A stretch of DNA of 59,330 bases, from IMG/VR virus record IMGVR_UViG_3300010400_000023, positions 1 to 59,330 of that record; one strand, written 5' to 3'. Within the stretch, counting starts at the first letter, position 1, and each line of letters begins with the position of its first letter. The DNA is from a virus. A model generated the notes under the pieces. That model ran no database searches. It was not told where the DNA came from and saw nothing but the letters and a program-made list of their open reading frames with translations. Below, piece after piece: positions 31,897 through 59,258 of this stretch. The position numbers were made by a program, and so were the translations under genes.

Positions 31897-32081
31897 GACC
31901 GCACCGCCGTTCCGCGGCGAACCAGACGGGCCTGCGGGATGGCCGGCGTGGTGCGGCGGAGAACCTTCGCGATTGCCTGGAAGGGATGGCCGTCGGTCAT
32001 GATCATGATGAGCGTGAACGCGGCGATCAGGATCACGACTGACCAGGCGATGATGTGCTGCCAGACGGGCGGGCTATTCAT
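31893..32081 (-). CDS. Small membrane protein from a leaderless-type promoter, 62 aa
   Basis: One membrane helix (WSVVILIAAFTLIMIM, about residues 13-28), then a basic cytoplasmic tail. The ATG lies exactly 6 nt after the -10 of the strong promoter at 32082-32116 and has no Shine-Dalgarno. It is the first gene of a short leftward operon. Function unknown. Confidence 0.75.
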   Translation of the reverse strand: MNSPPVWQHIIAWSVVILIAAFTLIMIMTDGHPFQAIAKVLRRTTPAIPQARLVRRGTAVRS

Positions 32082-32116
32082 GTCCAGACTGTAGCCACAA
32101 CTGTAGCCACAGTCAA
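32082..32116 (-). promoter_or_regulatory. Leaderless-type early promoter with tandem 12-mer repeat
   Basis: On the minus strand TTGACT (32116-32111), a 17-nt spacer, TACAGT (32093-32088), then CTGGAC and ATG at 32081. The spacer and -10 carry two tandem copies of ACTGTAGCCACA (plus-strand 32088-32099 and 32100-32111), a probable operator overlapping the promoter. Confidence 0.75.
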
Positions 32117-32144
32117 GGGTCGTCGCTCGCGCTACGCTCCGCCC

Positions 32145-32450
32145 GTGGCCTGCCTCGACGCCTCACCCGCCTGTCGGCCTGCCGCGCTCTGCGACGGGTG
32201 CCTCGGCCGGGCCATCGCCAGCGGTCGAGGCCAGGCTCGCGTGCTCGGCGAATGCTGGGCTGAGCGGGTTGCGCGCCGGCCGGAGTTCCGGGTCCGAGAC
32301 AGCTGGCCGACGGACGAGCGGACCGCGGGGATGGCGCGCCGGAAGGTGGCCGGGCTGTCGGCCGATCCGCGGGTCGCCGACGAGCTCGCCGGGGCGTGCC
32401 TGCGGGGCGCAGCGGCGTGGTGGGCGAGGCGGCCGGAGCGTTATCGGTGA
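32145..32450 (+). CDS. Small Cys-rich plus-strand protein, 101 aa
   Basis: Starts at GTG 32145 (a longer frame from 32055 would overlap the divergent gene). Cysteines cluster at VACLDASPACRPAALCDGC (residues 2-20), a likely zinc site. A charged helical C-terminus follows. It is transcribed opposite to its neighbours, abutting the minus-strand gene at 32451 stop to stop. Not recognised. Confidence 0.6.
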   Translation: MACLDASPACRPAALCDGCLGRAIASGRGQARVLGECWAERVARRPEFRVRDSWPTDERTAGMARRKVAGLSADPRVADELAGACLRGAAAWWARRPERYR

Positions 32451-33689
32451 TCAGTCATCGTCCACCTGTACCATCACGGTCAGCTTTGGCTTGGCCGTCT
32501 CGGCTACGCGAGCGCGGAGTTGCGCCGACCAGTGAGCCGACACCGCGGCACGCTGGGCCGGAGTGAATTCTGAAGACATGCGCGGAAACCACGAATCGCA
32601 TCCCTCTCGACGACAGACCTCATCGCGAAAAATCAGCGCCTTTAACACCTCGCCGTCGATGACTACGTCGAGCGGGTCAGCCGGCACCGCGCACGCCGCG
32701 CATCTCCACGGATGCCGGATCACGCCATCGACCGGCGTGGTCGCCGAGCACTGCGCTCCGTCGCGGATGCCCTGGCAGCGGAGTCTGGACAGGGGCGGCC
32801 CCATCTCGTCCATCAGCTTGCGCAGCCGTTGCCCGTATTCTGTCGCCTGGCTCTCGGTGATGCGGTCGTCGGTGAAGGGGATCATCTGGGCCGGAGGCGG
32901 CATCGGTGCCTTGAGCATCGCTTCGGCGCGGGAAACGCCGAACACTTCGTAAGCCTCGCGTTTGAGTAGGTCACACTCCGCCAGTAACGACGATGGAATC
33001 GGCTCCATGGTGCGAAACAGTTCGCGAGCCTGATCGTCGCATCGCTTCAGCATCGTGTCGACCGCGGCCTCGGTCTTCTCGCGCAGCTGCGCCACGAACG
33101 CGTCGCTTTGCCGCAGCGCCTCGCGGTCGACCTGCACCGGCTGGTAGCGCTTGGGATTCCGGGCTGTAGGCTCCACAAACGGCACCCACGTCCCGAGGTG
33201 CTCGCGCTGGAAGTCGGGCCGATTACGTACCTGCCAAGTCGATGCGTCGCTGTCGTTCGCCACATGGTCCGTGTAGACCACGCAGACCTTCCCACGCTCG
33301 ATGCCGTTCCGATATAGAACGATCTTCTGCTTGAGACCGAGATGATCGCGGACGTCGGAAGCCATGTCACGGCAGTAACTACTCAAAACCGACGGCCCGC
33401 CGTCGATGTAGAGCGTAACGCCTCCCATCAACTGGCATTGCGCGAGCGCTTCGAGTAGCCCGCGCATTGTCCGGCCGGTACGGCGCGGCGGCGCAGGCGA
33501 CAGCGCGGCGTACTCTGCCCACGGCCGCAGCCCCATGCGCTGGCGGTAGGACTCGGCGATGGCGATCACGTCGGTCGGCGGCGAGTCCTCGGGGAAGTAG
33601 TTCCCGATCGTTACGCCGCACCCGTGGCAGTTGTAGAGGTCGTTCGCGCTCGGTCGGATGTCAGCGCTCTGGCAGTGGGGGCAGTTCAT
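32451..33689 (-). CDS. Zinc-ribbon protein with C-terminal module shared with the 1631-2581 gene
   Basis: 412 residues. The N-terminus is a zinc ribbon (CPHC...CHGCG, residues 3-24). The middle is a predicted alpha/beta domain with VTLYIDGGPSVL and KVCVVYTDHV. A second Cys group (CQG...CAAC) precedes the last ~75 residues, which contain ADPLDVVIDG and TPAQRAAVSAHWSA and match the C-terminus of the plus-strand gene 30 kb away. The function is unknown. It lies beside attP, so lateral acquisition is possible. Confidence 0.75.
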   Translation of the reverse strand: MNCPHCQSADIRPSANDLYNCHGCGVTIGNYFPEDSPPTDVIAIAESYRQRMGLRPWAEYAALSPAPPRRTGRTMRGLLEALAQCQLMGGVTLYIDGGPSVLSSYCRDMASDVRDHLGLKQKIVLYRNGIERGKVCVVYTDHVANDSDASTWQVRNRPDFQREHLGTWVPFVEPTARNPKRYQPVQVDREALRQSDAFVAQLREKTEAAVDTMLKRCDDQARELFRTMEPIPSSLLAECDLLKREAYEVFGVSRAEAMLKAPMPPPAQMIPFTDDRITESQATEYGQRLRKLMDEMGPPLSRLRCQGIRDGAQCSATTPVDGVIRHPWRCAACAVPADPLDVVIDGEVLKALIFRDEVCRREGCDSWFPRMSSEFTPAQRAAVSAHWSAQLRARVAETAKPKLTVMVQVDDD

Positions 33690-33806
33690 CGGGTCTCCTG
33701 TAGTTGTAGCTTCTGTGCCGACGGGGCGGCAGAAATACTGAGGTCAGCGGGCGCGGCACACCGGTTGCACGAGATCGACCCATCTGTGCGCAGTTCCACG
33801 GTTCCA

Positions 33807-33854
33807 CGCGGACTGAAAATCCGCGTGTCGTTGGTTCAATTCCGACCCTGGGCA
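33807..33854 (+). other. attP: Probable attP core: 3' half of tRNA-Phe(GAA)
   Basis: Plus strand: anticodon stem CGCGGA/TCCGCG around loop CTGAAAA (anticodon GAA), then a T stem GTTGG/CCGAC around TTCAATT, then CCTGGGC-A, the 3' acceptor strand. The 5' acceptor and D-arm are absent from the upstream sequence, so this is not a working tRNA. A 3' tRNA fragment directly beside an integrase is the usual structure of an attachment core that restores the host tRNA on integration. The exact core limits cannot be fixed without the host site. Confidence 0.85.
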
Positions 33855-34952
33855 CTATCGTTTCGATATCTTGCGACGAGTTTCGGTCGCTGTCGGAGCG
33901 TCATTCGTCTCATTGGTATCTCGTGATCCACGGTCGTCTTGCACACGGGCTGCACACGGCTTCCCGCCGGGCAATCGGCTCACGGCTTCGGCGAGCGTGT
34001 CCTCGGACAGGCGACCGTAGACGAGATCGACCATCTTGGTGCTCGTGTGGCCGAGCAGGCGTGCCACCACGGCGCTGTCCGTCTTCTGGTTCTTGAGCCA
34101 ACTGGCGAACGTCCGGCGCAAGTCGTTGGGCGTCACCCTGGGGACCTTGGCGAGATCGGCTGCACGCGCCAGATCGCGGCGGACGTTGCGCCATCGAGTG
34201 ACGATCGGCCCGAGCAAGCGCTTCGGCGCCCCCGCGGCCAGGGCTTCGAGTAGGCGGGGCGCGATCGGTACGATACGCCACCGCGATGTGCGCTTGGTAC
34301 CTGGGACGCGCATCTTGGCCCGTCCAAAGTCGATATGCTCCCACCTGATGCGCTCGACCTCGCCGAGCGACAGACCGCCGAACATCGCAAGCATCACCCA
34401 CAGGCGGCGGCGAACGGCGATCTTCGCGAGGAAGCGCTCGGCCTGATGCTCGTCGAGCCAGACCTCCTTAGGCCGGTAGACCACGCGAACCTTGGGCACC
34501 ATGTCCTCGATCGACCCAGACCACAGACCACGCTTGCGGGCTTCGGCAAGCGCCCGACGCAGCACCACCAGCTCCTTGTGGATGGTGCCGTTGGCGGCGG
34601 TTTCGCTCTGGCGTGTCGCGATGTAGCGCATCACGGCATCGCGGGTGAGCGTGCCGACCTCGGTGTCGCCGCCGATCAGCCGGGTGAGGTGATGCCCCTT
34701 TTGGGCGTACGCTGTTGCGGTGGCTGCGGCGCGCTCGATGGCCACTACCGCGAGCATGTTGCCGATCGCATCCCTCAGCGTGTGGTGCGAATGCGTGGCC
34801 GGATCGGCCGATCCCAGTTCGAGCTTGCGGAGCTTGGCGCGAGCGACTTGCTGATCGCGCGTGCGGAGCGACTGCCGCCGAGCACGGCCTCGGATGTCAG
34901 TCCAGTAGCCGTGCCACGTGCCGCCTGGCTTGCGTTGATAGATTCTTCCCAC
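33855..34952 (-). CDS. int: Tyrosine recombinase integrase
   Basis: 365 residues from GTG 34952, with AGAGG just upstream; longer frames overlap the excisionase. The N-terminal arm domain (GRIYQRKPGGTWHGYW) precedes a core-binding domain (about 55-150) and the catalytic domain. Visible residues: Lys220 in KRTSR, NDLR at 276-279, His302 in LGHTS, Tyr312 in VYGRL. The box I Arg position reads GLSLGEV with Ser195, and the usual His of HxxR is Asn. The gene ends at attP, as typical. It integrates and excises the phage at a tRNA-Phe gene. Confidence 0.9.
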   Translation of the reverse strand: MGRIYQRKPGGTWHGYWTDIRGRARRQSLRTRDQQVARAKLRKLELGSADPATHSHHTLRDAIGNMLAVVAIERAAATATAYAQKGHHLTRLIGGDTEVGTLTRDAVMRYIATRQSETAANGTIHKELVVLRRALAEARKRGLWSGSIEDMVPKVRVVYRPKEVWLDEHQAERFLAKIAVRRRLWVMLAMFGGLSLGEVERIRWEHIDFGRAKMRVPGTKRTSRWRIVPIAPRLLEALAAGAPKRLLGPIVTRWRNVRRDLARAADLAKVPRVTPNDLRRTFASWLKNQKTDSAVVARLLGHTSTKMVDLVYGRLSEDTLAEAVSRLPGGKPCAARVQDDRGSRDTNETNDAPTATETRRKISKR

Positions 34953-35128
34953 GGTGCCTCTGTTCTGGATGCGAGATATCGAGCAAGCGCCTCCTCGGGG
35001 ACCCGCAACAGGCTGCCGACGCGCACGTGAACACACGAGCGGGCCACGCGGTACGCGGTCGCACGCGAACATCCGAGACGCGCGGCGATGTCTGCGGCGG
35101 TGAGGTAGACGATGTGCGGACGGGTCAC
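34775..35128 (-). CDS. xis: Excisionase / MerR-type HTH protein
   Basis: 117 residues; the GTG overlaps the end of the previous gene. Residues 8-50 form a HTH_17 excisionase-like domain (YLTAADIAARLGCSRATAYR, then a wing around VGSLLRVPEEAL). It would direct integrase toward excision. The frame overlaps the 5' end of int by 178 nt in another frame; the last ~55 residues may be only a shadow of int or a true long overlap, common for xis/int pairs. Confidence 0.75.
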   Translation of the reverse strand: MTRPHIVYLTAADIAARLGCSRATAYRVARSCVHVRVGSLLRVPEEALARYLASRTEAPWEESINASQAARGTATGLTSEAVLGGSRSARAISKSLAPSSASSNWDRPIRPRIRTTR

Positions 35129-35280
35129 GTCGCCTTCGCCCTCTCCAGCAACACCGCCAGCAGCTTCGCCTCCTCGTCGCTGCCCTTGCGCGCGCAGCCA
35201 TAGGCCCAAGCGATCCGCTTGAGGCTAGCGTTGGATGGGTCGGCGAGGATGCCGGCAATGCCGGTGGCTGTGGAGGTCAT
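35125..35280 (-). CDS. Hypothetical protein, 51 aa
   Basis: ATG at 35280, overlapping the previous gene and ending on the xis GTG. A small helical protein (IAGILADPSNASLKRIAWAYG, then a Glu/Ala-rich helix). Not recognised; its place before xis suggests a regulatory or structural role in the int-xis operon. Confidence 0.65.
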   Translation of the reverse strand: MTSTATGIAGILADPSNASLKRIAWAYGCARKGSDEEAKLLAVLLERAKAT

Positions 35281-35444
35281 GGCTTGTTCTTCTCCTTCGC
35301 CCAGTCCCGGGCGTCGCTCCGCCTGGCGAACACGGCGATCGGCCACTCGTCGTCGCGCTCGGTGTCGTAGACGGCGTGGTCCGGCTTGCCGTTGAGGGCG
35401 AGGCCGATGTGATGGTCGGGGCGGACGACGTAGCGGCGGGTCAT
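35277..35444 (-). CDS. Hypothetical protein, 55 aa
   Basis: ATG 35444, stop coupled to the next gene. Small, with TRRYVVRPDHHIGLAL and WPIAVFARRSDAR stretches. Likely a compact alpha/beta fold. Not recognised. Confidence 0.65.
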   Translation of the reverse strand: MTRRYVVRPDHHIGLALNGKPDHAVYDTERDDEWPIAVFARRSDARDWAKEKNKP

Positions 35445-35743
35445 GACGCCGCCACCGGCGATCGCAGGATGACGTAGAACTCCGTGTTGCCGCACTCGTT
35501 TTCGCCGCACGCAGGCTCGGGCTCGTTCGGCTCAACGGCGCGAGCAAAGAACATCCGCCGGTTGCAGTCGCATCCGGCGTTGCCATCGGTCCACCAGAAC
35601 TCGTCTTTCCACGTGTTGCAGGGCTTCCAGCCGGGGCGGTCGATGCGTTGCACACCGTCGGAGACACGCACGATGACGACCTGCATCTCGTCGGTGTCGG
35701 CGGTTCCGGGCGGGCGCTGGATGATGTCGCGGGTTCGGGTCAT
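35441..35743 (-). CDS. Hypothetical Cys/Trp-rich protein, 100 aa
   Basis: ATG 35743 with coupled overlaps on both sides. Contains CNTWKDEFWW, a NAGCDCNRRM pair and CGENECG (possible zinc site), with a beta-rich N-terminal part (MQVVIVRVSDG). Function unknown. Confidence 0.65.
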   Translation of the reverse strand: MTRTRDIIQRPPGTADTDEMQVVIVRVSDGVQRIDRPGWKPCNTWKDEFWWTDGNAGCDCNRRMFFARAVEPNEPEPACGENECGNTEFYVILRSPVAAS

Positions 35744-35895
35744 AGGGGCCGATCGCTTTCCGGCGGCATGGGCTCGACCTCGTACTGTGTTGCCGCCGCA
35801 GCTCGGAGCAGCAGCCACATGCACACAGCGCGTGGCAGGTGCAGACGCTCGGCGACATCATGCGTGGTGAGCCAGAGGCGGAGGCGGATGGTCAT
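35740..35895 (-). CDS. Small helix-turn-helix-like protein, 51 aa
   Basis: ATG 35895 to TGA at 35740, coupled to both neighbours. It reads WLTTHDVAERLHLPRAVCMW, a helix-turn-helix pattern like excisionase or MerR-type short regulators, then a hydrophobic helix and an acidic tail. Confidence 0.6.
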   Translation of the reverse strand: MTIRLRLWLTTHDVAERLHLPRAVCMWLLLRAAAATQYEVEPMPPESDRPL

Positions 35896-36080
35896 GGTTT
35901 CATCCTTCGGTACTCATCGATCAGCCGGCGGCGCTCGTCGAGCGTGGCCGACAGTTTGATCTCGGCTTCCTGGCCGATCTGATCGTTGAGTCCGGTGTGC
36001 TGCAGGCACATCGTGTCGAGGTCCTCGATGACGATCGTGAGGTCGGCGATGCGTACGGCGACTATGGCGCGGTCGGTCAT
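35892..36080 (-). CDS. Hypothetical coiled-coil protein, 62 aa
   Basis: ATG 36080, ATGA-coupled. Helical and acidic (IADLTIVIEDLDTMCL, then EAEIKLSATLDERRRLIDEY). Probably dimeric. Not recognised. Confidence 0.6.
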   Translation of the reverse strand: MTDRAIVAVRIADLTIVIEDLDTMCLQHTGLNDQIGQEAEIKLSATLDERRRLIDEYRRMKP

Positions 36081-36277
36081 GGCAACGTCTCCAGATCCAC
36101 GAGCGTCTGATGCATGACGTCGAAATCACGCTCGCTGTCGCCCGCACGACTGTCCACGTACGCCCGCACTGCCCGCTGCAGCTTGAGCATCGCGCGAATC
36201 GTCTCGAGGTCGACGAACGCTCGCGGTACGGTGCTCTCAGGGCCGAGGCGGTAGCGGAGGCGGTCGAGGGCGGTCAC
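36077..36277 (-). CDS. Hypothetical protein, 66 aa
   Basis: GTG start at 36277 overlapping the previous stop; a longer frame exists but is not needed. Helical and charged throughout (TIRAMLKLQRAVRAYVDSRA). Not recognised. Confidence 0.6.
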   Translation of the reverse strand: MTALDRLRYRLGPESTVPRAFVDLETIRAMLKLQRAVRAYVDSRAGDSERDFDVMHQTLVDLETLP

Positions 36278-36519
36278 GTGAACCACTCCGCGCGCAGCGC
36301 CGGGTGTGACTCGATCAGGCGGTACGCGGCTTCGACGCAAGACTCCCCGTAGCCGTACGGGTCGACAGAATCGCAGAGCACGGCATGGCGCAGTTCGAGG
36401 GCAACACGCAGCGGCTCACCGGTTCTCTGTCCGATCAGGTCATCGACGTACGTCAAATTCCGCGCATCGCTCACGCACATGAGCACCTCGATCACCTGGC
36501 GTTTCTCGGCGAGCGTCAT
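36274..36519 (-). CDS. Hypothetical protein, 81 aa
   Basis: ATG 36519, coupled. A helical, slightly acidic protein with two cysteines (MCVSD; LCDSVD). Not recognised. Confidence 0.65.
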   Translation of the reverse strand: MTLAEKRQVIEVLMCVSDARNLTYVDDLIGQRTGEPLRVALELRHAVLCDSVDPYGYGESCVEAAYRLIESHPALRAEWFT

Positions 36520-37088
36520 GATTCACCTCCAAGGTCCGCATGCCGCGCCACGCTAGCTGCGACGTCGTGGCGGGTGTTGTCGTCGGAGGCGTGCTCGGTG
36601 GCGGCGATGGCGGCGCGCAGATGATCCTCCACGCGATCCGCCTCCGCCTGCCGCTCGCGTACCTGCCGCGGTGTCAGACCGATGACCTCGGGTGCGCCGG
36701 CGCGGATGATGCGGTCGTCGGGGTTCGCGTGCACGAGCTTGAGCTCGTCGGCCAGATCATCGTGCTCCACGATCGCCCGAGCCAGCCAACCGGAGTACCA
36801 ATGTGACGACATGAGAGCGGAGTCATCTTCATCGACCCGCTCGAAGTCCTCCCACCCCCAGCGCTCCGCTGTCATGGCCGAACCCGGACAACCGCCCAGC
36901 CATGCCTCGATCGAGTGGACGGCCAGTTCAGCGGCGCGCAGCTCGTCGTACGAGTTGTATGTGTCTGCGGCTGGCCCCATCCCCACGGTCTCCTTGCACC
37001 GGCGACATCGCCAGCGCTCGACGACGCAGCCGCGGAACCGATCGTCGTAGGAATCAGGCTCGATCATCTTGTGGCGGCAGGTCCCCAT
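36516..37088 (-). CDS. Zinc-ribbon N-terminal hypothetical protein, 190 aa
   Basis: N-terminal CRHKM... and CRRCKETV (residues 4-33) make a Cys-His zinc site. The following part is helical with TAERWGWEDFERVDEDDS and a C-terminal coiled region (QVRERQAEADRVEDHLRAAI). It might bind DNA or protein; family unknown. Confidence 0.7.
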   Translation of the reverse strand: MGTCRHKMIEPDSYDDRFRGCVVERWRCRRCKETVGMGPAADTYNSYDELRAAELAVHSIEAWLGGCPGSAMTAERWGWEDFERVDEDDSALMSSHWYSGWLARAIVEHDDLADELKLVHANPDDRIIRAGAPEVIGLTPRQVRERQAEADRVEDHLRAAIAATEHASDDNTRHDVAASVARHADLGGES

Positions 37089-37249
37089 CAGCTCTCTCCT
37101 TGCTTCGCGCCAGTAGCGGCGTACGTGGTTAGCTGCCCGATGTATCCAGCGGCCCAGTCAGCGCGGCCGACGGCCGTGTACCAACTGGCCATCCAGGCCA
37201 CGACGACATGGTGCGGGAGCATCTGGCGCTCGGCGGGTTCGACGGTCAC
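37088..37249 (-). CDS. Hypothetical protein, 53 aa
   Basis: GTG 37249 (MVTVEPAERQM-like start) to TGA at 37088, overlapping both neighbours by a few bases. Trp/Ala-rich small protein (VVVAWMASWYTAVGRADWAAG). Possibly interacts with membrane or another protein. Confidence 0.6.
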   Translation of the reverse strand: MTVEPAERQMLPHHVVVAWMASWYTAVGRADWAAGYIGQLTTYAATGAKQGES

Positions 37250-37746
37250 GACGGCACCCCATCAATCGCAGCTTCGACCGCATCGGCCAGCTTCGCAGCC
37301 TCATCAGCCGCAACGTCGATCTCCCTGCAGGTCAGCAGGTCTGCAGCCGCGGCTGTCAGCGCCCGCAGCCGGATCATCGTCGTGTCGTGGCGGCGCTCTG
37401 TCGCGGTCAGCTGGCGTGCGAGGTCGGCGGCTCGGTCGGACATGGACTGGAAGTCGCGGCGGTACTGGGCGAGCTGCCGACGTGCGGTGGCGAGCGTGTC
37501 GGTGGCCTCGCGGAGGTCGGCTTTGAGGCGGTCGTTGGTGGCCTCGAAGCGCTGGCGGTCGCTGATGTTCAGGCCGGTGGCGACGTCGAGACGGTCCATG
37601 TACAGCCGCATGTCCTCGCACATTGCGGAGATGTGGCCGAGGAGATCGTCCGCCACCGCCCAGTTACATGTGGCCGAGCGCTGGTCGACTCGGCGGCGAA
37701 TGCCAGACAGTTCCTCGGGGCTGAGAAGCTTGGGTTCGGGCTTCAT
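37246..37746 (-). CDS. Coiled-coil protein, 166 aa
   Basis: ATG 37746. A long heptad-rich stretch (about residues 50-130: SDRQRFEATNDRLKADLREA and similar) should form a coiled coil. No catalytic motif. Similar coiled-coil genes recur through this leftward block. Confidence 0.7.
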   Translation of the reverse strand: MKPEPKLLSPEELSGIRRRVDQRSATCNWAVADDLLGHISAMCEDMRLYMDRLDVATGLNISDRQRFEATNDRLKADLREATDTLATARRQLAQYRRDFQSMSDRAADLARQLTATERRHDTTMIRLRALTAAAADLLTCREIDVAADEAAKLADAVEAAIDGVPS

Positions 37747-38048
37747 GGGATACCTTTCTCGAGGATCGCCTCAAGATCGTTGGCCAACTCTGGACTCCGG
37801 TCGCGCAGCGAGCCTTCGGCCACGCCGAGCGCGTTCTCTAGCTCGCGGATTCGGGCGACGAGCTTGATGGTGACGTTGGGGTTGTTCGCGTACCGGTGCT
37901 CGGTGAGCGCGTCAATCCATCGCTCGACGCTCCTAGCAGGCGGCAATCCGTTGCTGTTCGAGACGAACTCGGCGTGCGTCGAGATGAACTCGGCGTGCGC
38001 CGTGACTGCCGCTGTCGCCTTGCGCTCTAGCTCGTCGAGGTCGATCAC
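37743..38048 (-). CDS. Hypothetical helical protein, 101 aa
   Basis: GTG start at 38048. Helical, with a repeated small motif (AEFISTHAEFVS) in the N-terminal quarter and an amphipathic C-terminus. Not recognised. Confidence 0.65.
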   Translation of the reverse strand: MIDLDELERKATAAVTAHAEFISTHAEFVSNSNGLPPARSVERWIDALTEHRYANNPNVTIKLVARIRELENALGVAEGSLRDRSPELANDLEAILEKGIP

Positions 38049-38052
38049 GGCT

Positions 38053-39110: not shown

Positions 39111-39120
39111 AGAAAGTCCT

Positions 39121-39138: not shown

Positions 39139-39187
39139 GCTGAAGGGAGGGAAGGCGCCCTGCGACGCCGTGTGAGCAGGGGAACGG

Positions 39188-46553: not shown

Positions 46554-46810
46554 GACAGCCCTCCGTACGCGTGGACCTTGGCGGCCGATTCGGCAGCGCG
46601 CATCCTGTCGCTCATCTCGACAAGGAGGACGTCGCGCTCGATGCCGGAGCTGAACTGCCGGCAGCGAGCCGCGTCTCCGTAGCAGTAGACGGTTCGGTGG
46701 CGGCGCCCGATGACGGCGTGGGTAGACGAGTCAATCTCGCGCAGAGCCTGAGCCAGTAGGCGGCGCTTGATCTCGCGCGCCACGACGCGATGGATCGCTG
46801 CGTGGCTCAC
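46550..46810 (-). CDS. Hypothetical basic protein, 86 aa
   Basis: GTG 46810 coupled to the gene upstream. Basic helices (IHRVVAREIKRRLLAQALREI), a strand (HRTVYCYGDAARC), then an acidic helix. Likely nucleic-acid or protein binding. Not recognised. Confidence 0.6.
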   Translation of the reverse strand: MSHAAIHRVVAREIKRRLLAQALREIDSSTHAVIGRRHRTVYCYGDAARCRQFSSGIERDVLLVEMSDRMRAAESAAKVHAYGGLS

Positions 46811-47130
46811 GAGCACACCGCCCTGCGGCCCTCGGTGGCCTGGATGCCGGTGTAGCGGGCGATGGCCGCGTCGAGCCGGCGCGCGCACGCCACGGCTTCG
46901 TGGCCGGCGTCTTTCGCGCGGTCCGCGACGAATGCGACCGCGTCAGCCGACGCGCTGGTCAGCTCGAGTTCGGTGGCGAGTTCGGCCGCGATGTCCGCGA
47001 GCTCTCTCGCGCACGCCGCCCATGCCGTAGGCGTGACACCGTCGCAGGTGTGGAGGTCGTTGTAGACGAGGAGCGCCGCAGCGCGGCGGGCGAGAAGAGC
47101 CGTCGAGACGCGAGGAGTTGGGCTGGGCAT
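46807..47130 (-). CDS. Hypothetical helical protein, first gene of main leftward operon, 107 aa
   Basis: The ATG at 47130 follows the -10 of the early promoter by exactly 6 nt, with no Shine-Dalgarno, so it should be translated from a leaderless mRNA. The protein is Ala-rich and helical (residues 8-105), with a few cysteines. It leads the leftward coupled operon. Function unknown. Confidence 0.7.
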   Translation of the reverse strand: MPSPTPRVSTALLARRAAALLVYNDLHTCDGVTPTAWAACARELADIAAELATELELTSASADAVAFVADRAKDAGHEAVACARRLDAAIARYTGIQATEGRRAVCS

Positions 47131-47165
47131 GAATCCACTCTAAGTGGACTAGCCCGATCGCGCAA
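47131..47165 (-). promoter_or_regulatory. Leftward early promoter with palindromic operator
   Basis: Minus strand: TTGCGC (47165-47160), 17-nt spacer, TAGAGT (47142-47137), GGATTC, then ATG at 47130. The perfect palindrome TCCACT-CTA-AGTGGA (47134-47148) overlies the -10, so binding would block transcription. The same TCCAC half-site recurs in the repressor/Cro-like gap. Confidence 0.75.
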
Positions 47166-47175
47166 GGCCGAAAAT

Positions 47176-47328
47176 CTACTTTTCGTGAACTACGCGCAAC
47201 AACAGGGTGATCAGTGCCTCGTACGCGGCCGGATCAACCTTTGCCAGCGTCTCCAGCAGCTCCACGAACTTCTCATCACGTTCGCAGGCCGGTACTACTA
47301 GCCCGCCGCATTTCGCAGCGATCGCCAT
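47176..47328 (-). CDS. Small protein downstream of the repressor, 50 aa
   Basis: ATG 47328 with AAGGG seven bases upstream; it ends at 47176. Short helical protein (EKFVELLETLAKVDPAAYEALI) with one early Cys. It is likely co-transcribed with the repressor gene, 23 nt upstream. Function unknown. Confidence 0.6.
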   Translation of the reverse strand: MAIAAKCGGLVVPACERDEKFVELLETLAKVDPAAYEALITLLLRVVHEK

Positions 47329-47351
47329 CTGACCCTTGTATCAGGTTTGTG

Positions 47352-47723
47352 TCAGCGCTTCAAAGCCGCTGACAGAAAAGCTATTACGCCATCCTTGAGG
47401 TCGTCCCCGGCATGGCGCACAAGCTCCATGATTCGGCCATCTTTCGTATCGGTTACGGCTGGGTTAGCGACGAGCGGCGGAGGCAAGTCGAGGAGTTCGC
47501 AGATGGTCGGAACGTCCGCCGATCCCGTCTGGACCATATTCCCCTCGCTGTCCACCGCGAACATCTTGTAGCCGGCGCTCCTCGATATCCCGATCTGTTC
47601 GGCGAGCCACGGGATGTCCTTGCCGCGCTTCTCTAATTCGGCCAGCACCAGGGCCTTCCACTCCGGAGTCATCTCCCGCACCGGCCCCTTTGGGTTGTCT
47701 CCGTCATGTCTTGGATCAGCCAC
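47352..47723 (-). CDS. HTH repressor-like protein (CI position)
   Basis: 123 residues from GTG 47723; a second start at the internal Met is possible. Helix-turn-helix region TPEWKALVLAELEKRGKDIP through WLAEQIGISRSAGYKMF (about residues 18-54) resembles XRE/CI-type DNA-binding domains. The C-terminus is helical and may dimerise; no LexA-type protease motif is seen. It is divergent from the Cro-like gene, across a spacer with TCCAC operator sites, as in lambdoid immunity regions. Confidence 0.75.
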   Translation of the reverse strand: MADPRHDGDNPKGPVREMTPEWKALVLAELEKRGKDIPWLAEQIGISRSAGYKMFAVDSEGNMVQTGSADVPTICELLDLPPPLVANPAVTDTKDGRIMELVRHAGDDLKDGVIAFLSAALKR

Positions 47724-47750: not shown

Positions 47751-47765
47751 TCCACTTCCTGTGGA
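47751..47765. promoter_or_regulatory. Immunity-region operator candidate TCCAC-N5-GTGGA
   Basis: A dyad TCCAC ttcct GTGGA lies between the divergent repressor and Cro-like genes, just upstream of the rightward -35. A further TCCAC half-site sits at about 47784-47788 inside the rightward spacer. The half-site matches the palindrome over the leftward early promoter at 47134-47148, though with different centre spacing. Confidence 0.6.
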
Positions 47766-47771: not shown

Positions 47772-47806
47772 TTGACGATATCGTCCACAATAAGTAGAAC
47801 AGGTGT
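47772..47806 (+). promoter_or_regulatory. Rightward early promoter (Cro-like gene), leaderless geometry
   Basis: TTGACG (47772-47777), a 17-nt spacer, TAGAAC (47795-47800), AGGTGT, then ATG at 47807. This is the same -10-to-start spacing of 6 nt as the two leftward promoters. Confidence 0.75.
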
Positions 47807-48034
47807 ATGGCTGCACACAGGAAGCGAGGCCCCGAGCCAGGAACGTTCGGATGGCGCCTACGCGAAGCTCGCCAGCGAGCAGGACTGAGCGCCCCGAAGG
47901 TCGCTCGACGGGCCGGGGCCAAGATCAGCACGTATTACTCTTGGGAGTCGGGCGATCGGATGCCGCGCGACATCGTCAAGCTGGCCAAGGCGGCGAAAAC
48001 GACAGTAGGCGCGCTGTTCGGGGAGGCATCATGA
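47807..48034 (+). CDS. Cro-like XRE-family HTH protein, 75 aa
   Basis: 75 residues. WRLREARQRAGLSAPKVARR and AGAKISTYYSWESGDRMP (residues 16-53) form a typical XRE HTH, with helix 3 around ISTYYSWE. It lies opposite the repressor and at the head of the rightward operon, as Cro would. It may repress the repressor gene by binding the TCCAC dyad. Function is inferred from position and fold. Confidence 0.8.
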   Translation: MAAHRKRGPEPGTFGWRLREARQRAGLSAPKVARRAGAKISTYYSWESGDRMPRDIVKLAKAAKTTVGALFGEAS

Positions 48035-48039
48035 CCGCC

Positions 48040-48519
48040 TCACTCGTACTCCTTGTAGTCCTTTATCTTCCGCATCGTGCATTCGATTTGCTGGCTCGAT
48101 CTGCACCATGCGGTTCGCGCCTTGATGCATCGGGATGCCGGAAGAGTGGACCCGTCGGTTGTCATGATCATCTCGAGGAGCTCGACACACTCCTTCCGCG
48201 TCCGACCGCAGAGTGTTTCCGGGTCGCACCACCATCCGCGCGCTCCGTCGGAGAACGCAGAAAGCAACCCTTCGATTCTAAGCAACCGGAAGGTCTGTTG
48301 CTGATCGGCGTCCCACAGGTTTTTGATAACCGGAGACGCTACCAGCTCATCGAACGCCTCTTGCTTGGTCCGGGTCCGGGTCACAGGCGGTTCGTTCTTT
48401 GTTGCGTACCTCTCGAGCGCGCCGACCTTGATCTCGAGCGCCTCGATTCTCTGACGGTCGTCGGCGCTCGTGCACGCCACGACCGCAGCCACCACGCACA
48501 TCATCCTCAGGTTGGGCAT
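48040..48519 (-). CDS. Lipoprotein with coiled coil, antisense in the early operon (moron candidate)
   Basis: 159 residues. MPNLRMMCVVAAVVAC is a short lipoprotein signal ending in a lipobox VVAC. A helical coiled region follows (RQRIEALEIKVGALERY), then a Cys-bearing C-terminal part (WWCDPETLCGR, SRCIKART). It is read against the early operon and divergent from 48642, so it may be a lysogen-expressed conversion gene. No function recognised. Confidence 0.75.
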   Translation of the reverse strand: MPNLRMMCVVAAVVACTSADDRQRIEALEIKVGALERYATKNEPPVTRTRTKQEAFDELVASPVIKNLWDADQQQTFRLLRIEGLLSAFSDGARGWWCDPETLCGRTRKECVELLEMIMTTDGSTLPASRCIKARTAWCRSSQQIECTMRKIKDYKEYE

Positions 48520-48641
48520 GCCCTCGAGCGTAACGCAGCCCGAGCACAGAAAACTTCTCACGCGCGCCGATGTAGCGACCGGCCGGTAGGGGCGCAAGTC
48601 CTGGAAATTCGGTCAGCACGCCATCCGGAACGGTGTGGGCC

Positions 48642-48887
48642 ATGACGACCGCCGTCATGATGTTGGTGCTCGGAGCCGTCTGGCTCGTCGCGCTCCGCTG
48701 GGTCGTCTACGAGCTGCCGCTGGGCGAGCGGGCCGCGCGAGTTGGCTGCGCGGTCATCGTCGGCGCGAGCGCGGGGCCACTGCTGCCGCTCGAGTGGATC
48801 GTCGTCGGTAGCGTCTGGGCGGTGGTCGTCGCGAGTCAGGCTGACCGGCGCGGAGATGCACCGATGGCGCGGCAGGTGCGGAGGTGA
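48642..48887 (+). CDS. Small two-helix membrane protein, 81 aa
   Basis: ATG 48642 (GTG at 48633 is an alternative). Two hydrophobic segments: MMLVLGAVWLVALRWVVYEL and VGCAVIVGASAGPLLPLEW onward, with a basic tail. A small inner-membrane protein, the first of several here. Not recognised. Confidence 0.65.
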   Translation: MTTAVMMLVLGAVWLVALRWVVYELPLGERAARVGCAVIVGASAGPLLPLEWIVVGSVWAVVVASQADRRGDAPMARQVRR

Positions 48888-51259: not shown

Positions 51260-51260
51260 C

Positions 51261-53359: not shown

Positions 53360-54693
53360 TCCTCCGCCCCTATCAGCTCCAGGCGATCGACGCCCTACGC
53401 GCCGCTTATCAGCGCGGCAAACGCGCTCCGCTGCTCGTCGCTCCGACGGGCTCAGGCAAGACCATCATCGCCTCGTCGATCATCCAGTCGGCACACGCGC
53501 GCGGTAACCGCTCGCTGTTCGTCGCTCCGCGCCGCGAGCTCATCGGGCAGACCGTGCGCAAGCTGGCCGACGCTGGGATCTGGGACGTCCGCGTCATCCA
53601 GGCCGCGAACGACACCGGCCGGCCGGATGCGCCGGTGATCGTCGGCAGCATCCAGACGCTCACGCTGCCGCGATGGCTCGGTCACCTGCCGCAAGCCGAC
53701 CTTGTGATTGCCGATGAGGCACACCACATGGCCGCGGACCAATGGGGCCAGCTGGCCACGGCGTACCCGACGGCGCGATGGCTCGGCTTGACAGCCACGC
53801 CAGAGCGAGCCGACGGCAGGCCGCTCGGCGACATCTTCGACGACCTGATCGTGGCCGCATCCGTCGCCGAGCTCACCGCTCTCGGCAACCTGGTTCCGAG
53901 TCGCGTATACGCCCCACCGTCCGAACTCAAGGCCGCGCAGACCGCGCTCGATCCGGTCGACGCCTACCAGCAACACGGCTCGGGCCAGCTGGCCGTCGTG
54001 TTCTGCGTCACCGTCGAGCACGCCGAGCTAACCGTAGCGGAGTTCACCGCCGCTGGCATCCCTGCCGCGGTGATCACCGGCAAGACGCCACCAGCGCAGC
54101 GCGAGGCCACGCTCGCGGCATGGGCGGCCGGCGACATCCGTGTGGTCGCCAACTGCGGCGTCCTTACCGAGGGGTTCGACCTGCCAGCGCTCAGCGTCTG
54201 TATCCTCGCGCGCCGATTCGGTCACGCCGGGCTGTTTCTGCAGTGCGTCGGCCGCGTGCTACGCCCCGCCGAGGGCAAGACCCAGGCGACCGTGGTCGAC
54301 CTGTGCGGCTCGGTACACAAGCACGGGCCACCGGAGATGCCGCGCGAGTACAGCCTCGACGGCAAGGCGATCTCCGGCGTCAAGCGCGATGCGATCCGCC
54401 AGTGCATGAGCTGCGGCTCGGTGTTCATGGCCGGACCCGCAGCCTGTCCGCAGTGCGGCGCCATGCTGCCCCGGCGCGCCGCCGAGTTGCCGTACAGCAC
54501 CGGTGTCGGTGTCGTCGACATCGCCACGCTGCCCAAGGTGCCGACGCGCAGCTACACGCTCTCGATTACTGCCAAGTACGCCGGCAGATGCCGAGCGTGT
54601 GGTGAGCGATTCCCCGTTGGCACGCAGCTCTACTGGACCGAGGGGCAGCGACCACGACACGTCGAATGTCCATCAGCGGAGGCAGTCGCATGA
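53356..54693 (+). CDS. SF2 DNA helicase with C-terminal zinc ribbon
   Basis: 445 residues from ATG 53356. Q-motif-like RPYQLQAIDAL, then APTGSGKT (Walker A, about residues 27-34), DEAHH (motif II), LTATPER (motif III), GVLTEGFDLP and QCVGRVLRP (motifs V-VI). After the helicase core come CMSCGSVF...CPQCG and CRACGERF zinc knuckles that may bind DNA or a partner. It would unwind DNA for replication or recombination, and lies just before the primase-like gene. Confidence 0.9.
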   Translation: MILRPYQLQAIDALRAAYQRGKRAPLLVAPTGSGKTIIASSIIQSAHARGNRSLFVAPRRELIGQTVRKLADAGIWDVRVIQAANDTGRPDAPVIVGSIQTLTLPRWLGHLPQADLVIADEAHHMAADQWGQLATAYPTARWLGLTATPERADGRPLGDIFDDLIVAASVAELTALGNLVPSRVYAPPSELKAAQTALDPVDAYQQHGSGQLAVVFCVTVEHAELTVAEFTAAGIPAAVITGKTPPAQREATLAAWAAGDIRVVANCGVLTEGFDLPALSVCILARRFGHAGLFLQCVGRVLRPAEGKTQATVVDLCGSVHKHGPPEMPREYSLDGKAISGVKRDAIRQCMSCGSVFMAGPAACPQCGAMLPRRAAELPYSTGVGVVDIATLPKVPTRSYTLSITAKYAGRCRACGERFPVGTQLYWTEGQRPRHVECPSAEAVA

Positions 54694-55046
54694 GCAGTCG
54701 CGTGAGCATGACCGAGTCTCAACTACAGGATGCAATCCGTCTGGCGCTCGGCGCCGATCCGGGTGTCCTGACCTTCCGGAACAATATCGGCCACGCCGTC
54801 ATGCAGGGCGGACGGCGCGTGACGTTCGGGGTCGGCGGACCCGGCGGCGCTGACCTGATCGGGATCCTCGATCGACACCCCTTGGCCATCGAGATCAAGA
54901 CGCCCACTGGTCGGCAATCCAAAGAGCAGAAACAGTTTCAGCAGCTATGGGAGGCACGAGGGGGAATCTACATCATGCCGCGATCGGTCGACGAGGCGCT
55001 CGCACTCATCGCTCGAATCCGCGCTGCTACCGGAGCGTGTCAGTGA
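54690..55046 (+). CDS. VRR-NUC-type PD-(D/E)XK nuclease
   Basis: 118 residues from ATG 54690 (ATG 54708 is an alternative). GPGGADLIGILDRHPLAIEI with a following KTPTGRQSKEQ gives the D...ExK catalytic core of a VRR-NUC domain; size matches. VRR-NUC enzymes cut branched or flap DNA. It is coupled between the helicase and the primase, fitting replication-fork processing. Confidence 0.85.
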   Translation: MSSRVSMTESQLQDAIRLALGADPGVLTFRNNIGHAVMQGGRRVTFGVGGPGGADLIGILDRHPLAIEIKTPTGRQSKEQKQFQQLWEARGGIYIMPRSVDEALALIARIRAATGACQ

Positions 55047-57118
55047 TGGTTACCATATCTCACTTCAACGGACTGACTCGTACCACCGCCGAGCCGTTGG
55101 AGATCGATATCGAACGCTGGCTTGACCTGCTCGCCACCGAGCCCGCTGACCAGTACACCGGCCAGATGGAACACCCCGGATGGTCTCCGGTGCTCTACGA
55201 CCCGCCGCGGCGCGAGCTGGCCAATGTCCGGCGCGTGTTCGCCCTCGTCCTTGATCACGACAAGGGCGCCGAGTTCGACCGCCTGACGGAGCTGTGGGCC
55301 GGCTCGTCCGGCGTGGTCTACACGACCAAGTCCCACGCCGACGGCGCGCCGCGATACCGGGTCGTGCTCGCGCTCGCTCGGCCGGTCACGGCCGAGGAGT
55401 ACGCCAAGATCTGGGACTGGGGTGCGGTGCGCTCTCACGCCGCGCAGTGCCCCGCCGACAAGCAGTGCAAGGACGCCTCGCGGTTCTGGTACAGCCCGAC
55501 GCTGCCGCCCGGCGGGTGGCGCGCGCAGCGGCTGACCGGCGCGGCCGTCGACCCCGATGCGATCCTGGCGCTGGCCGCAGCGCAGCAGCCACGGCTCCGT
55601 GTCGTCGCGCCGGCGTCGACTCCGCTCACGCCGGATCGCGTGCGGCGTGCCCGCGCGTACCTGCGCAAGATACCCGGCGCGGTGGCCGGCGCCTCGGGCC
55701 ACACGGCTACGTTCAACGCGGTTGCGCACGTCATGATCGGCTTCGACCTCGGCGAGGACGACACGCTCGCGCTCATCGCCGACGACTACAATCCGCGCTG
55801 CGACCCACCGTGGTCTGAGCGCGAGCTCAGGCACAAGATCGCCAGCGTCTCGGCGCAGTGCAAGCGCGAGCGCGGCTACCTGCTGGCCGATCGTCCACGC
55901 ATCGAGTCGTCGCGTGCAGCGGCCACGTACGCCCCCGAGGCGCCGACCGAGCTCGATGTCGACTGGACGACGCTCCTGCTCACCAAGGCGGACCGCTCAC
56001 CGCGTCGCGCGTATCACAACACCGCGGTGTTCGTGCGGCACCACCCGGAGTTCAGAGGGCGCTGGAGCCTCGACCTGATGACGAACCAGCCGTGGTTCGA
56101 CGGCCGCTCGATGGATCCGTCGCATGTCCACTACATCCGCGCGCAGGCGGACTGCCGTCTCGGCTATACGCCGCCGGCGGCCGATGTCGAGGCGGCGATC
56201 ATCACAGCCGCGGCGGATCGCCCGTTTCACCCGATCCGCCAGTACCTCCGCTCCCTGGACTGGGACGGATCGCCCCGGCTGCAGGCGATGGCGCACGACT
56301 ACCTGGGCTCCGACGGCGAGCTGCACGCGGAGATGGTGCGCAAGTTCATGGTCGGCGCCGCCGCACGCGCCCTCTGGCCCGGCTGTAAACTCGACACGGC
56401 GCTGATGCTGGTCGGCGATCAGGGGCTCGGCAAGTCGACGTTCTTCTCGGTACTCGGCGGAGCCTGGCACGCTGACACGTTCATCGACATCACGAACAAG
56501 GACGCGGCGATCCAACTGCACAGCGCGTGGATCTACGAGCTGTCCGAGCTCGAGAACGTGGTCACCGGCAGCCGCGAGTCCAGGCTCAAAGCCTGGCTCA
56601 CCAGTACCCACGACCTGTACCGCCCGCCATACGGGCGCACTGCCGAGCGCCGAGCGCGAGCGGTCAGCATCTGCGGTACGACGAACCGACGGCAGTTTCT
56701 CACGGACGATACGGGCTCGAGGCGGTTCCACATCGTTCCGGTGGAGCGCCGGGTGCCTCGTGACCTGCTGGCCGAGATGCGAGATCAGCTCTGGGCGGAG
56801 GCCGTGTGTGCCGCGGAATCTGGTGAGCCATGGTGGTTTGACGAGGAGCCGGAACGGCTGAGGGAACTGGCAAACGAGGAGTTTCACGAGGATGACGCTT
56901 GGCTTGATCCAATCGCTGAGCACCTCGCCTCTCCGGGCATCAGGCAGGTCACGATGAGCGACGTGCTCACGGCTGCGCTCAAGCTGGACGTGAGCAAGCA
57001 CGATCGCGCGTCGCAGACCCGCGTCGGACGAATCCTCAAGTTCATTGGGTGGCGAAAGGAACGCGAGAGCACCGGGTCTCGGCGGTGGTTCTACCGTCGT
57101 CAAGGCAGGGAATCCTGA
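55046..57118 (+). CDS. Primase/helicase: VapE-type ATPase with N-terminal primase-like region
   Basis: 690 residues; ATG 55046 shares its A with the previous TGA (GTG 55043 is an alternative). Residues 1-200 resemble a primase/RepB-type polymerase domain (VFALVLDHDKGAEFDRLTEL, RYRVVLALARPV). The C-terminal part is a VapE/SF3-like ATPase with GDQGLGKST (about residues 456-464), IYELSELENV and CGTTNRRQFLTDDTGSRR. It likely initiates phage replication, and the AT-rich region just downstream is a candidate origin. Confidence 0.85.
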   Translation: MVTISHFNGLTRTTAEPLEIDIERWLDLLATEPADQYTGQMEHPGWSPVLYDPPRRELANVRRVFALVLDHDKGAEFDRLTELWAGSSGVVYTTKSHADGAPRYRVVLALARPVTAEEYAKIWDWGAVRSHAAQCPADKQCKDASRFWYSPTLPPGGWRAQRLTGAAVDPDAILALAAAQQPRLRVVAPASTPLTPDRVRRARAYLRKIPGAVAGASGHTATFNAVAHVMIGFDLGEDDTLALIADDYNPRCDPPWSERELRHKIASVSAQCKRERGYLLADRPRIESSRAAATYAPEAPTELDVDWTTLLLTKADRSPRRAYHNTAVFVRHHPEFRGRWSLDLMTNQPWFDGRSMDPSHVHYIRAQADCRLGYTPPAADVEAAIITAAADRPFHPIRQYLRSLDWDGSPRLQAMAHDYLGSDGELHAEMVRKFMVGAAARALWPGCKLDTALMLVGDQGLGKSTFFSVLGGAWHADTFIDITNKDAAIQLHSAWIYELSELENVVTGSRESRLKAWLTSTHDLYRPPYGRTAERRARAVSICGTTNRRQFLTDDTGSRRFHIVPVERRVPRDLLAEMRDQLWAEAVCAAESGEPWWFDEEPERLRELANEEFHEDDAWLDPIAEHLASPGIRQVTMSDVLTAALKLDVSKHDRASQTRVGRILKFIGWRKERESTGSRRWFYRRQGRES

Positions 57119-57474
57119 TGCAATCAGCATGCGAGAAATCTGGTTCATCAAAGTGTCTCACTGCGAGGTCGGACACTTGGCCTACTGTCCTACCTAGGTT
57201 GGACGCACCTAAGTACCCGATTATCACTCGGCAATACTCTGTCTGTCCTACTGTCTTACTACTGAGAGTCTATTCTATTAGATATTATAAATATCTAAGG
57301 GAGAGTGGCGGCCCCCCAAAATCAGACAGACAGTCGGACAATCTCCAAATTGGTCAGTAATACGCTGGTTTTAGGTCGTGTCCGACACCACAAAGACAGG
57401 TTGGACTGAGTAGGCCGAGTATGACGGTGACCGGGCAGAACTGCATTCAATCTGCACCTACATAGGAGTTGCAC
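57119..57474. other. AT-rich intergenic region with repeated TYGGAC motifs: candidate origin
   Basis: 356 nt without a gene, clearly more AT-rich than the genome. It holds about seven copies of TYGGAC or its complement (TCGGACA near 57172, TTGGACG near 57200, TCCTAC near 57188 and 57246, TCGGACA near 57334, TCCGACA near 57381, TTGGACT near 57400), plus a perfect long palindrome at 57278-57298. Lying after the primase/helicase gene, it fits an iteron-type origin, though promoter or operator use is possible. Confidence 0.6.
57278..57298. repeat. Perfect palindrome, two 9-bp arms around ATA
   Basis: TTAGATATT, three bases ATA, and AATATCTAA form a perfect 9-bp-arm inverted repeat made only of A/T except two G/C pairs, in a high-GC genome. 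It could be a replication-initiator or regulator binding site. Confidence 0.75.
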
Positions 57475-57807
57475 ATGCGACAAGATTACACTGACCCTGT
57501 GCCCGCTTCTGGCGAGCGCCAGGACTCAGCCGCGCAGTCATCGGACCCGCTCGCGCCACGCTCACCAGCAGCAAGCCAGACACGAAATCGCCGCGGCCAG
57601 CAGCTATCACCAGGAGCCGTTCGGCGGGCCTCGCCAGCCGACTGGGTCGTGGTGTCGGTGAGTGTCGCACCCGCTGACTTGGCTCAGTGGGATGCCAAGG
57701 TCGCCGCGTGCCGCGCGGCTGGCGTGTCGATGTCCCGCAGCCGCCTGATCGCTATCGCCCTGGCCGCTCTCGACCTCGAGGCGGTCATCCTCGGCGGTGG
57801 GCGATGA
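57475..57807 (+). CDS. Putative RHH-like protein with disordered N-terminus, 110 aa
   Basis: ATG 57475, with AGGAG seven bases upstream, so unlike the leaderless genes it has a normal ribosome site. Residues 1-60 are Pro/Ser/Gln/Arg-rich. The C-terminal part (VSVSVAPADLAQWDAKVAAC, then MSRSRLIAIALAAL) resembles a ribbon-helix-helix fold. Perhaps a DNA-binding regulator. Confidence 0.65.
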   Translation: MRQDYTDPVPASGERQDSAAQSSDPLAPRSPAASQTRNRRGQQLSPGAVRRASPADWVVVSVSVAPADLAQWDAKVAACRAAGVSMSRSRLIAIALAALDLEAVILGGGR

Positions 57808-58310
57808 GGCGACCGCACGTTACGCGCGCTGACCTCAAGCCGCGATCGCTGGTGAGCACGCGCGCAGACGAGACGACTCGAGCCGATCTCTACGCGCTGC
57901 GGGCTGAGACGGCCGCGCTCGTCACGCCTCGGGTCGCCAAGCAGATGGCGAACCGCCCTCGCTTGCGCGCTGACTGCGTCCCGTGCGTGGTCTGTCAGTG
58001 GTACGTCGACCAGGGCGAGCCGCTGGTGGCCGCGCTGCCGCTGTCGTGCGGTCATGCACGGCCAGCGCATCACGCAAGACCGTGTCCGGTCGCGCGGTGT
58101 CGACACAGCCTGCTCGTCGAGATCAACCCCGAGACCGGCTCGGTGAAGATCCTGCCCGAGGCGTCCGAGTCGTGCTCGCTCGACGTGGCCGACCGAGGTG
58201 AGCAGACGCTCGAGGATATCGGGTTGCTCACCAACCTGACCCGAGAGCGCATCCGGCAGATCGAGCAGTACGGGCTGCGTCTGCTCAAGCAGCGGATGCC
58301 GAGGTGGTGA
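57804..58310 (+). CDS. Sigma-70 region-4-like HTH regulator with zinc site
   Basis: 168 residues, ATGA-coupled. Near the middle, CVPCVVCQ, CGHARPAHHARPCPV and RCRHS give a Cys/His zinc cluster. Residues ~132-165 read EQTLEDIGLLTNLTRERIRQ, then a helix of Leu/Arg, matching region 4.2 of sigma-70 factors (…ERIRQIE…). It may recruit RNA polymerase to late promoters. This region lies directly upstream of the late operon across the circle junction. Confidence 0.8.
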   Translation: MRRPHVTRADLKPRSLVSTRADETTRADLYALRAETAALVTPRVAKQMANRPRLRADCVPCVVCQWYVDQGEPLVAALPLSCGHARPAHHARPCPVARCRHSLLVEINPETGSVKILPEASESCSLDVADRGEQTLEDIGLLTNLTRERIRQIEQYGLRLLKQRMPRW

Positions 58311-58567
58311 GCTATGCTCGTGGCGTGCAAATTGTTCTATACCGCCTGACCGATCGCCATGTCCTCGCCGAGCTCCTCGCCATCAACGGTGAGCGCGCCG
58401 ATCTCCGCACGTATGTCATCTACCCGGACGGACATCTCGACACGCTCGAGATCAGCGGTGCGACGCAGGGACCCGGGATTAATCAGTGGCAGAATCCGCT
58501 CGACGTCACCAATCCGGTGCTTCTGGTCGAGGAGCCGCATCTGCCGATCCCGATGCCGGCGCAGTGA
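58307..58567 (+). CDS. Hypothetical protein, 86 aa
   Basis: GTG 58307 overlapping the previous stop (GTG 58325 is an alternative). Beta-rich (IVLYRLTDRHVLAELLAI, then DLRTYVIYPDG) and acidic. Not recognised. Confidence 0.6.
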   Translation: MSYARGVQIVLYRLTDRHVLAELLAINGERADLRTYVIYPDGHLDTLEISGATQGPGINQWQNPLDVTNPVLLVEEPHLPIPMPAQ

Positions 58568-58917
58568 GCGTCCGCGACCCAGTCTTCGGCTGCGACCTCT
58601 CGACCTCGCGGCTCGACGCCCACGGCTACGCGTACCATGGCCACACGCGAGCGCACATCGCTGCGTGGACCGCGGAGAATGGCGCCGTGTCCGACGGCAA
58701 GGTGTTGGATCACATCTGCCGTCGGCGCAACTGCATGGCGACGATTCACCTCGAGCCGGTGACGCAGTCAGAGAACGAGAAGCGCAAGCGCATGGCGTAC
58801 CGCGCGCGCATCAAGCTCTGTCCTCGCGGTCACAGTCTCGACGGTCAGAATCGAGCGGTAACGCCGGAGGGTGGCGTCACCTGCAGGGTCTGCAATCAGG
58901 CGTTCGGCGAGCAGTAA
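58564..58917 (+). CDS. HNH_3-type endonuclease
   Basis: 117 residues, GTG 58564 coupled. YAYHGHTRAHIAAWTAENG, then LDHICRRRNCMATIHLEPVT and a QSENEKRKR helix, is the HNH_3 phage endonuclease pattern with the catalytic His pair. A second Cys cluster follows (LCPRGH, CRVCNQ). It is the last rightward gene of the window; its end overlaps the antisense lipoprotein gene. Confidence 0.85.
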   Translation: MSVRDPVFGCDLSTSRLDAHGYAYHGHTRAHIAAWTAENGAVSDGKVLDHICRRRNCMATIHLEPVTQSENEKRKRMAYRARIKLCPRGHSLDGQNRAVTPEGGVTCRVCNQAFGEQ

Positions 58918-59222
58918 CACAGACCAGACGGAGCGATCTTCGCGTGACCGGCCGCGCACGGCGGATACTGATGCGCGCACGCTGGTCGACAGATGCTGTT
59001 GACACAGACGCCGAGTTCGCCGCGGCAGTGGCTGACCACTTCGGGATTCGGCGACTCGGGCACGCAGACCTCGCCGAAGAAATCAAACGGACCCGATGAG
59101 TCTGGCGGTGGCGGCGGAGATGGCGTTGCCATCGCATCGTCCGGCTCCCGGACATCGCTTGGGATCGTCGTCATTGGATCCGTACAACCGATCATCGCCA
59201 ACACCAGTATCCAAATGCGCAT
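58896..59222 (-). CDS. Cysteine-rich lipoprotein, antisense at end of early arm
   Basis: 108 residues from ATG 59222. MRIWILVLAMIGC is a lipoprotein signal with lipobox AMIGC. After a Pro-rich stretch, eight further cysteines (GEVCVPE, SHCRGELGVCVNSICRP, then ACAHQYPPC and LCYC) suggest a small disulfide-bonded surface domain. Cys-rich short lipoproteins of this style are common in Myxococcota. It has its own promoter and is probably expressed in lysogens. Function unknown. Confidence 0.75.
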   Translation of the reverse strand: MRIWILVLAMIGCTDPMTTIPSDVREPDDAMATPSPPPPPDSSGPFDFFGEVCVPESPNPEVVSHCRGELGVCVNSICRPACAHQYPPCAAGHAKIAPSGLCYCSPNA

Positions 59223-59258
59223 TACCGGCACGATAAACACCCTTGAAGATTGTGTCCA
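59223..59258 (-). promoter_or_regulatory. Lipoprotein promoter, near-leaderless geometry
   Basis: Minus strand: TGGACA (59258-59253), 17-nt spacer, TATCGT (59235-59230), then 7 nt to ATG at 59222. Same layout as the three early promoters except one extra base before the start. No Shine-Dalgarno before the ATG. Confidence 0.7.

Follow-up and report, generated by a model that had tools for sequence, protein, structure and literature searches.

Leaderless genes in bacteria and phages

The cI gene of phage lambda is the classical leaderless phage regulator. Its transcript from PRM is named as leaderless in the study of the Yersinia phage PY54, for which 5' rapid amplification of cDNA ends (RACE) placed the starts of both the cI and the cro mRNA at the AUG (PMC4488713). 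The divergent promoters PL1 and PR2 of Cluster O mycobacteriophages (PMC4351075) and gene 90 of Adephagia (PMC11373665) are predicted to be leaderless. Leaderless genes of bacteria are marked by a TANNNT motif some 12 bp ahead of the start codon. On average they account for 19% of the genes of Actinobacteria and for 16% in those delta-proteobacteria in which they occur. Leaderless starts are restricted to the proximal gene of a unit, and distal genes need a Shine-Dalgarno (SD) sequence (PMC3160421). Here, promoters lying directly before start codons are described in the IMG/VR virus record IMGVR_UViG_3300010400_000023, which was analysed over its whole length (59,330 bp, 65.5% GC; referred to as the window). 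The window is a temperate tailed phage: it encodes a terminase, a portal protein and head proteins, has early genes in both orientations and carries its immunity region in the centre.

The arrangement is like that of the TA-led leaderless genes of Actinobacteria, Deinococcus-Thermus and delta-proteobacteria in the position of the -10 box and in the division between leaderless proximal and SD-led distal genes. Those genes are chromosomal, whereas the present ones belong to a phage clade and have good -35 elements (PMC3160421). PY54 is comparable in its leaderless switch genes and its intergenic palindromic operators (PMC4488713). However, it is a telomere phage of E. coli/Yersinia with RACE data, while the present case is based on sequence and extends to PL, an accessory unit and a lipoprotein gene. 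Cluster O phages likewise have a high GC content, but their host is mycobacterial, and in the window the two promoters flank a repressor gene. Lambda has a leaderless repressor, whereas here the geometry predicts leaderless Cro-like and PL genes and is lacking at the repressor start.

Promoter geometry at unit-proximal start codons

The initial annotation had described three promoters with 17 nt between the -35 and -10 boxes and 6 nt between the -10 box and the ATG, and a fourth with distances of 17 and 7 nt. All four were found by reading the sequence, and a fifth, weaker site was added by a scan (Table 1). Compared with TTGACA/TATAAT, sites 1, 3 and 4 have five matches in the -35 and four in the -10 box; site 2 has three and four. 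The -10 boxes are TANNNT-like and end 5–7 nt before the start codon, although TAGAAC of PR fits TANNNT loosely. The sites precede the first gene of a unit; for the gene starting at 47328 this position is uncertain.

SD sequences are missing at these starts. At the five starts, the pairing energies with the anti-SD sequence lie between -1.5 and -4.3 kcal/mol, compared with -3.1 kcal/mol for random positions and an average of -6.1 kcal/mol for the genes of the window. None of the five was scored as stronger than the random level, and the PL start (-3.1 kcal/mol) equals the random mean. This agrees with the annotated absence of SD sequences at the sites, and the ATG at 57475 is indeed preceded by AGGAG, as had been noted. 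Leadered unit heads are present as well; the gene starting at 33689 on the minus strand shows AGGAG-type pairing (-7.4 kcal/mol). Internal genes of the window mostly overlap (ATGA), often with SD motifs.

Table 1. Promoter sites, operator-like sites and selected genes of the window
Feature	Position	Strand	Description
Site 1, accessory-unit promoter	32116-32079	-	TTGACT-17-TACAGT-6-ATG 32081; gene: 62-aa membrane-like open reading frame (ORF), head of 31258-32081
Site 2, predicted PL	47165-47128	-	-35 TTGCGC 47165-47160, 17 nt, -10 TAGAGT 47142-47137, 6 nt, ATG 47130
PL gene	46807-47130	-	107 aa, no family; first of the leftward early operon, which runs from PL down to about 35125
Site 3, predicted PR	47772-47809	+	-35 TTGACG 47772-47777, 17 nt, -10 TAGAAC 47795-47800, 6 nt, ATG 47807
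Cro-like XRE gene	47807-48034	+	75 aa, HTH_31 E=2.9e-11; first of the rightward early unit
Site 4, lipoprotein promoter	59258-59220	-	TGGACA-17-TATCGT-7-ATG 59222
Putative lipoprotein	58896-59222		108 aa, lipobox AMIGC, cysteine-rich
Fifth, weaker site	47363-47326	-	TTGAAG-17-TACAAG-6-ATG 47328; 50-aa ORF 47176-47328
Probable immunity repressor	47352-47723	-	123 aa, GTG start 47723, helix-turn-helix (HTH)-like; between OL and OR
OL1 palindrome	47134-47148		TCCACTCTAAGTGGA; over PL -10; centre about -11 from ATG
OL2 operator-like site	47175-47189		TCTACTTTTCGTGAA
OR1 palindrome	47751-47765		TCCACTTCCTGTGGA; upstream of PR, near the likely repressor promoter
OR2 operator-like site	47784-47798		TCCACAATAAGTAGA; overlaps PR -10
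Tyrosine integrase	33855-35258
Protein with sigma-70 region 4 domain	57804-58310		168 aa, PF04545, E=2.8e-6

Distance to the start codon compared with chance

A scan of random spacings had been named beforehand as a possible refutation. All 1515 ATGs on both strands were searched for a -35 box with at least 3/6 matches, a spacer of 17 nt and a -10 box starting with TA and matching at least 4/6, located at distances d of 0–40 nt. Four matches are present at d=6 and one at d=7, whereas the other distances average 0.38 (maximum 2). In 60 dinucleotide shuffles 0.55±0.78 matches were obtained at d=6 (maximum 3). With a stricter -35 box (at least 4/6) there are three matches at d=6, compared with 0.11 at other distances and 0.08 in shuffles. 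The scan thus favours the proposed geometry.

All five matches at d=6–7 (47807+, 47328-, 47130-, 32081- and 59222-) are gene starts, with 47807 and 59222 put into the gene list by hand (on account of the HTH and of the Met before the lipobox, respectively). The former had to be added manually because the codon-based gene caller missed the 75-aa gene, despite its HTH_31 domain. None of the 13 matches at other distances is a gene start; gene starts make up 72 of the 1515 ATGs. A generic promoter scan (9 of 12 matches) between 31 and 49.5 kb found two promoters where 2.2 were expected and thus no excess. Since these counts equal those of shuffles, they are not taken as evidence. What stands out is how far the promoters lie from the start codon rather than promoter-like sequence as such.

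Operator-like sites in the immunity region

The gene between the two divergent early promoters probably encodes the immunity repressor, judged by its position between operator pairs and by a match of its longer 154-aa form to phrog_6223 (E=0.009). Four operator-like sites of 15 bp each are located two on either side of this gene. In each pair one site lies on the -10 box of PL or PR and the other is centred 33–41 bp farther from the ATG. A position weight matrix built on three of the sites and run over the whole window gave OL2 at 47175 as the best other match. The layout is lambda-like, with divergent early promoters flanking the repressor gene and two related operator-like sites at each, and it identifies sites 2 and 3 as the predicted PL and PR. 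The placement of operators on the -10 boxes independently supports PL and PR as real, repressor-controlled promoters. The repressor presumably binds the four sites and would thereby silence PL and PR through the operators on the -10 boxes and those further out. Its own GTG start does not have the leaderless geometry.

The site 1 promoter contains a tandem 12-mer, TGTGGCTACAGT, twice at 32088-32111 (minus strand) with a -10-like TACAGT in each copy. The upstream copy lies within a perfect palindrome, ACTGTGGCTACAGT. The repeat is possibly the operator of another regulator. A LexA-type reading was dropped as the spacing does not fit.

Recurrence in related phages

Relatives were gathered by TerL similarity and their contigs were fetched. 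In the count for close relatives, which leaves out the window and has duplicates removed, 11 of 235 unit-head genes have a TANNNT that ends at d=6, whereas the mean for the other distances is 0.89 (Poisson P about 3e-9); each of the 11 starts with ATG. At d=7 the count is three. The best -35 box of the selected genes (spacer 16–18), which was not used in the selection, has 3.8 of 6 matches, more than the 2.1 seen elsewhere (d=6 and d=7 pooled, one-sided p=5e-4). Full promoters (at least 9/12, d=5–7, window included) are found at 3.9% of unit-head genes; the rate falls to 0.35% when control distances are used and to 0.17% for internal genes. The expectation that related phages would share the spacing is therefore borne out by this excess at d=6, as well as by the Cro-like genes.

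Cro-like genes of the relatives were selected by protein similarity alone. The geometry is present in all five (window and four relatives): TTGACA-17-CTCAAT-6-GTG in G005, TTGACA-17-CTCAAT-5-ATG in G010, TTGACT-16-TAAGGT-6-ATG in G011 and TTGACA-18-TAACCT-5-ATG in G017. A perfect palindrome, ATTGAGTGGTTCTCAAT, lies over the -10 box of the Cro-like gene in G005, and in G011 one is located at the -35 box. The gene divergent from cro in G017 has the leaderless geometry as well, with ACAAGTCAGACTTGT inside its promoter. The immunity genes of the relatives are not close to those of the window, so the shared layout is not simple DNA identity. DNA and protein searches in viral_contigs and INPHARED returned no close relatives of the immunity genes of the window.

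Outside the immunity region, G014 has hexamers identical to those of site 1 (TTGACT-17-TACAGT-6-ATG) before a different gene. Searches of plasmids and phages found no relative of the window lipoprotein. Its best ortholog is encoded in G014 (L089:10552-10863, tblastn 6.6e-13) behind TTGCGG-18-TATGCT-6-ATG. The start of this ortholog is 9 nt off the aligned Met, so that the layout is kept and the start is shifted. Lipoprotein-like genes with an equal layout are present in three other relatives. Cysteine-rich putative lipoproteins are recurrent accessory genes of the phage group (window, L089, L080 and G011:765-965), with one ortholog common to the window and G014.

Interpretation and alternative explanations

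A leaderless start with a leader of 0–1 nt is strongly supported by the geometry, the chance tests, the missing SD sequences, the operator placement and the conservation in relatives. We infer the actual transcription starts, the leaderless translation and the use of leaderless mRNAs by the host. Most likely (probability about 0.87), the sites reflect ordinary leaderless transcription of unit-proximal genes, which would be the way of the host rather than a phage-specific control class. The phage would then borrow the host's way of starting many unit-proximal genes, while distal genes of the same units would start via SD sequences or ATGA-type overlaps.

Several observations weigh against this interpretation. 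The -35 box of PL (TTGCGC) is weak. Site 4 has a spacing of 7 nt and an alternative GTG start at 59231 with AAGGG upstream. The gene at 47328 may instead be co-transcribed with the repressor, and AAGGG is present 4 nt 5' of its ATG. Furthermore, the excess is not significant in the more distant relatives (four observed, 2.4 expected).

Host evidence comes from TerL alignment, which gave one contig of an Actinomycetota metagenome-assembled genome (MAG) at 39% identity; for a host assignment this is weak evidence. A sample of 396 genomes of that phylum contained no further TerL-relative contig, and a portal search in genomes gave no match. The style of the lipoprotein may hint at a myxobacterial host. 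The MAG has the layout at 8 of 137 unit-head genes (0.78 expected), a rate similar to that of the phages (11/235), with the reservation that it may not be the true host. By this similarity the phage appears to follow a host-type convention.

The initial annotation had gone further and proposed a deliberate control class of leaderless lysogeny and early genes. Such genes would respond differently from SD-led ones, for instance to stress or to the state of the ribosome. The leaderless starts are backed by geometry, chance tests, SD absence, operators and relatives; the deliberate class is not, given the similar rate in the MAG. We consider such a class unlikely. It would account for the geometry at every Cro-like gene, where about 6% of unit-head genes reach at least 8/12 matches, and at the gene divergent from cro in G017. 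However, lipoproteins and unrelated small genes have the geometry too, and leaderless proximal with SD-led distal genes are a general rule (PMC3160421). A related proposal is that selection keeps the switch (Cro-like and PL genes) and the moron lipoproteins leaderless as a distinct class in which the operator of the repressor and the -10 box are merged. It appears equally doubtful; if true, repression and translation start would share the same few bases. The consistent use in Cro-like genes exceeds the background, which leaves some, though modest, probability that selection acts on the leaderless expression of the switch as such.

Less probable still is a start 1–5 nt upstream of the ATG, which would make the transcripts leader-poor but not strictly leaderless. 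RNA polymerase is flexible in its choice of start, and distances other than 6 nt occur, namely d=5 in relatives (besides d=6) and d=7 at site 4. On the other hand, the close relatives peak sharply at d=6, as would be expected if transcription began with the A of the ATG. Promoter-like hexamers lying near start codons by chance would explain why generic promoter counts equal those of shuffles, but this explanation is already contradicted by the spacing-specific excess, its restriction to gene starts and the independent excess in relatives, and is highly improbable.

Further features of the window

An inverted repeat, TTTGTGTCAGCG / CGCTGACAGAAA, at 47346-47378 spans the stop codon of the repressor gene just 5' of the 50-aa ORF and is a candidate terminator or further regulatory site. 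A 280-aa ORF (47803-48645) shares its DNA, in another frame, with the Cro-like gene and with a 153-aa ORF on the minus strand (48040-48501); either ORF may be the coding one after 48034. An AT-rich island (57160-57345) is located 3' of a VapE-like primase/helicase gene inside the 65% GC genome. It holds repeated CTGTCC/GTCCTAC/GTCGGAC words and a palindrome, AGATATTATAAATATCT, and is a candidate replication origin or regulatory region. The sigma-70 region 4 protein is a possible late regulator.

Implications

In high-GC phages, true promoters that escape hexamer scans can be detected by statistics on the distance to the start. The geometry also fixes start codons that gene callers miss, such as that of the Cro-like gene at 47807. 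Leaderless starting is already known from many bacteria and several phages; the pattern described here is real and extends to related uncultured phages. Within a phage group of which the collections searched contain no cultured representative, it provides a statistically tested case, built from sequence, of leaderless starts conserved in Cro-like and early genes.

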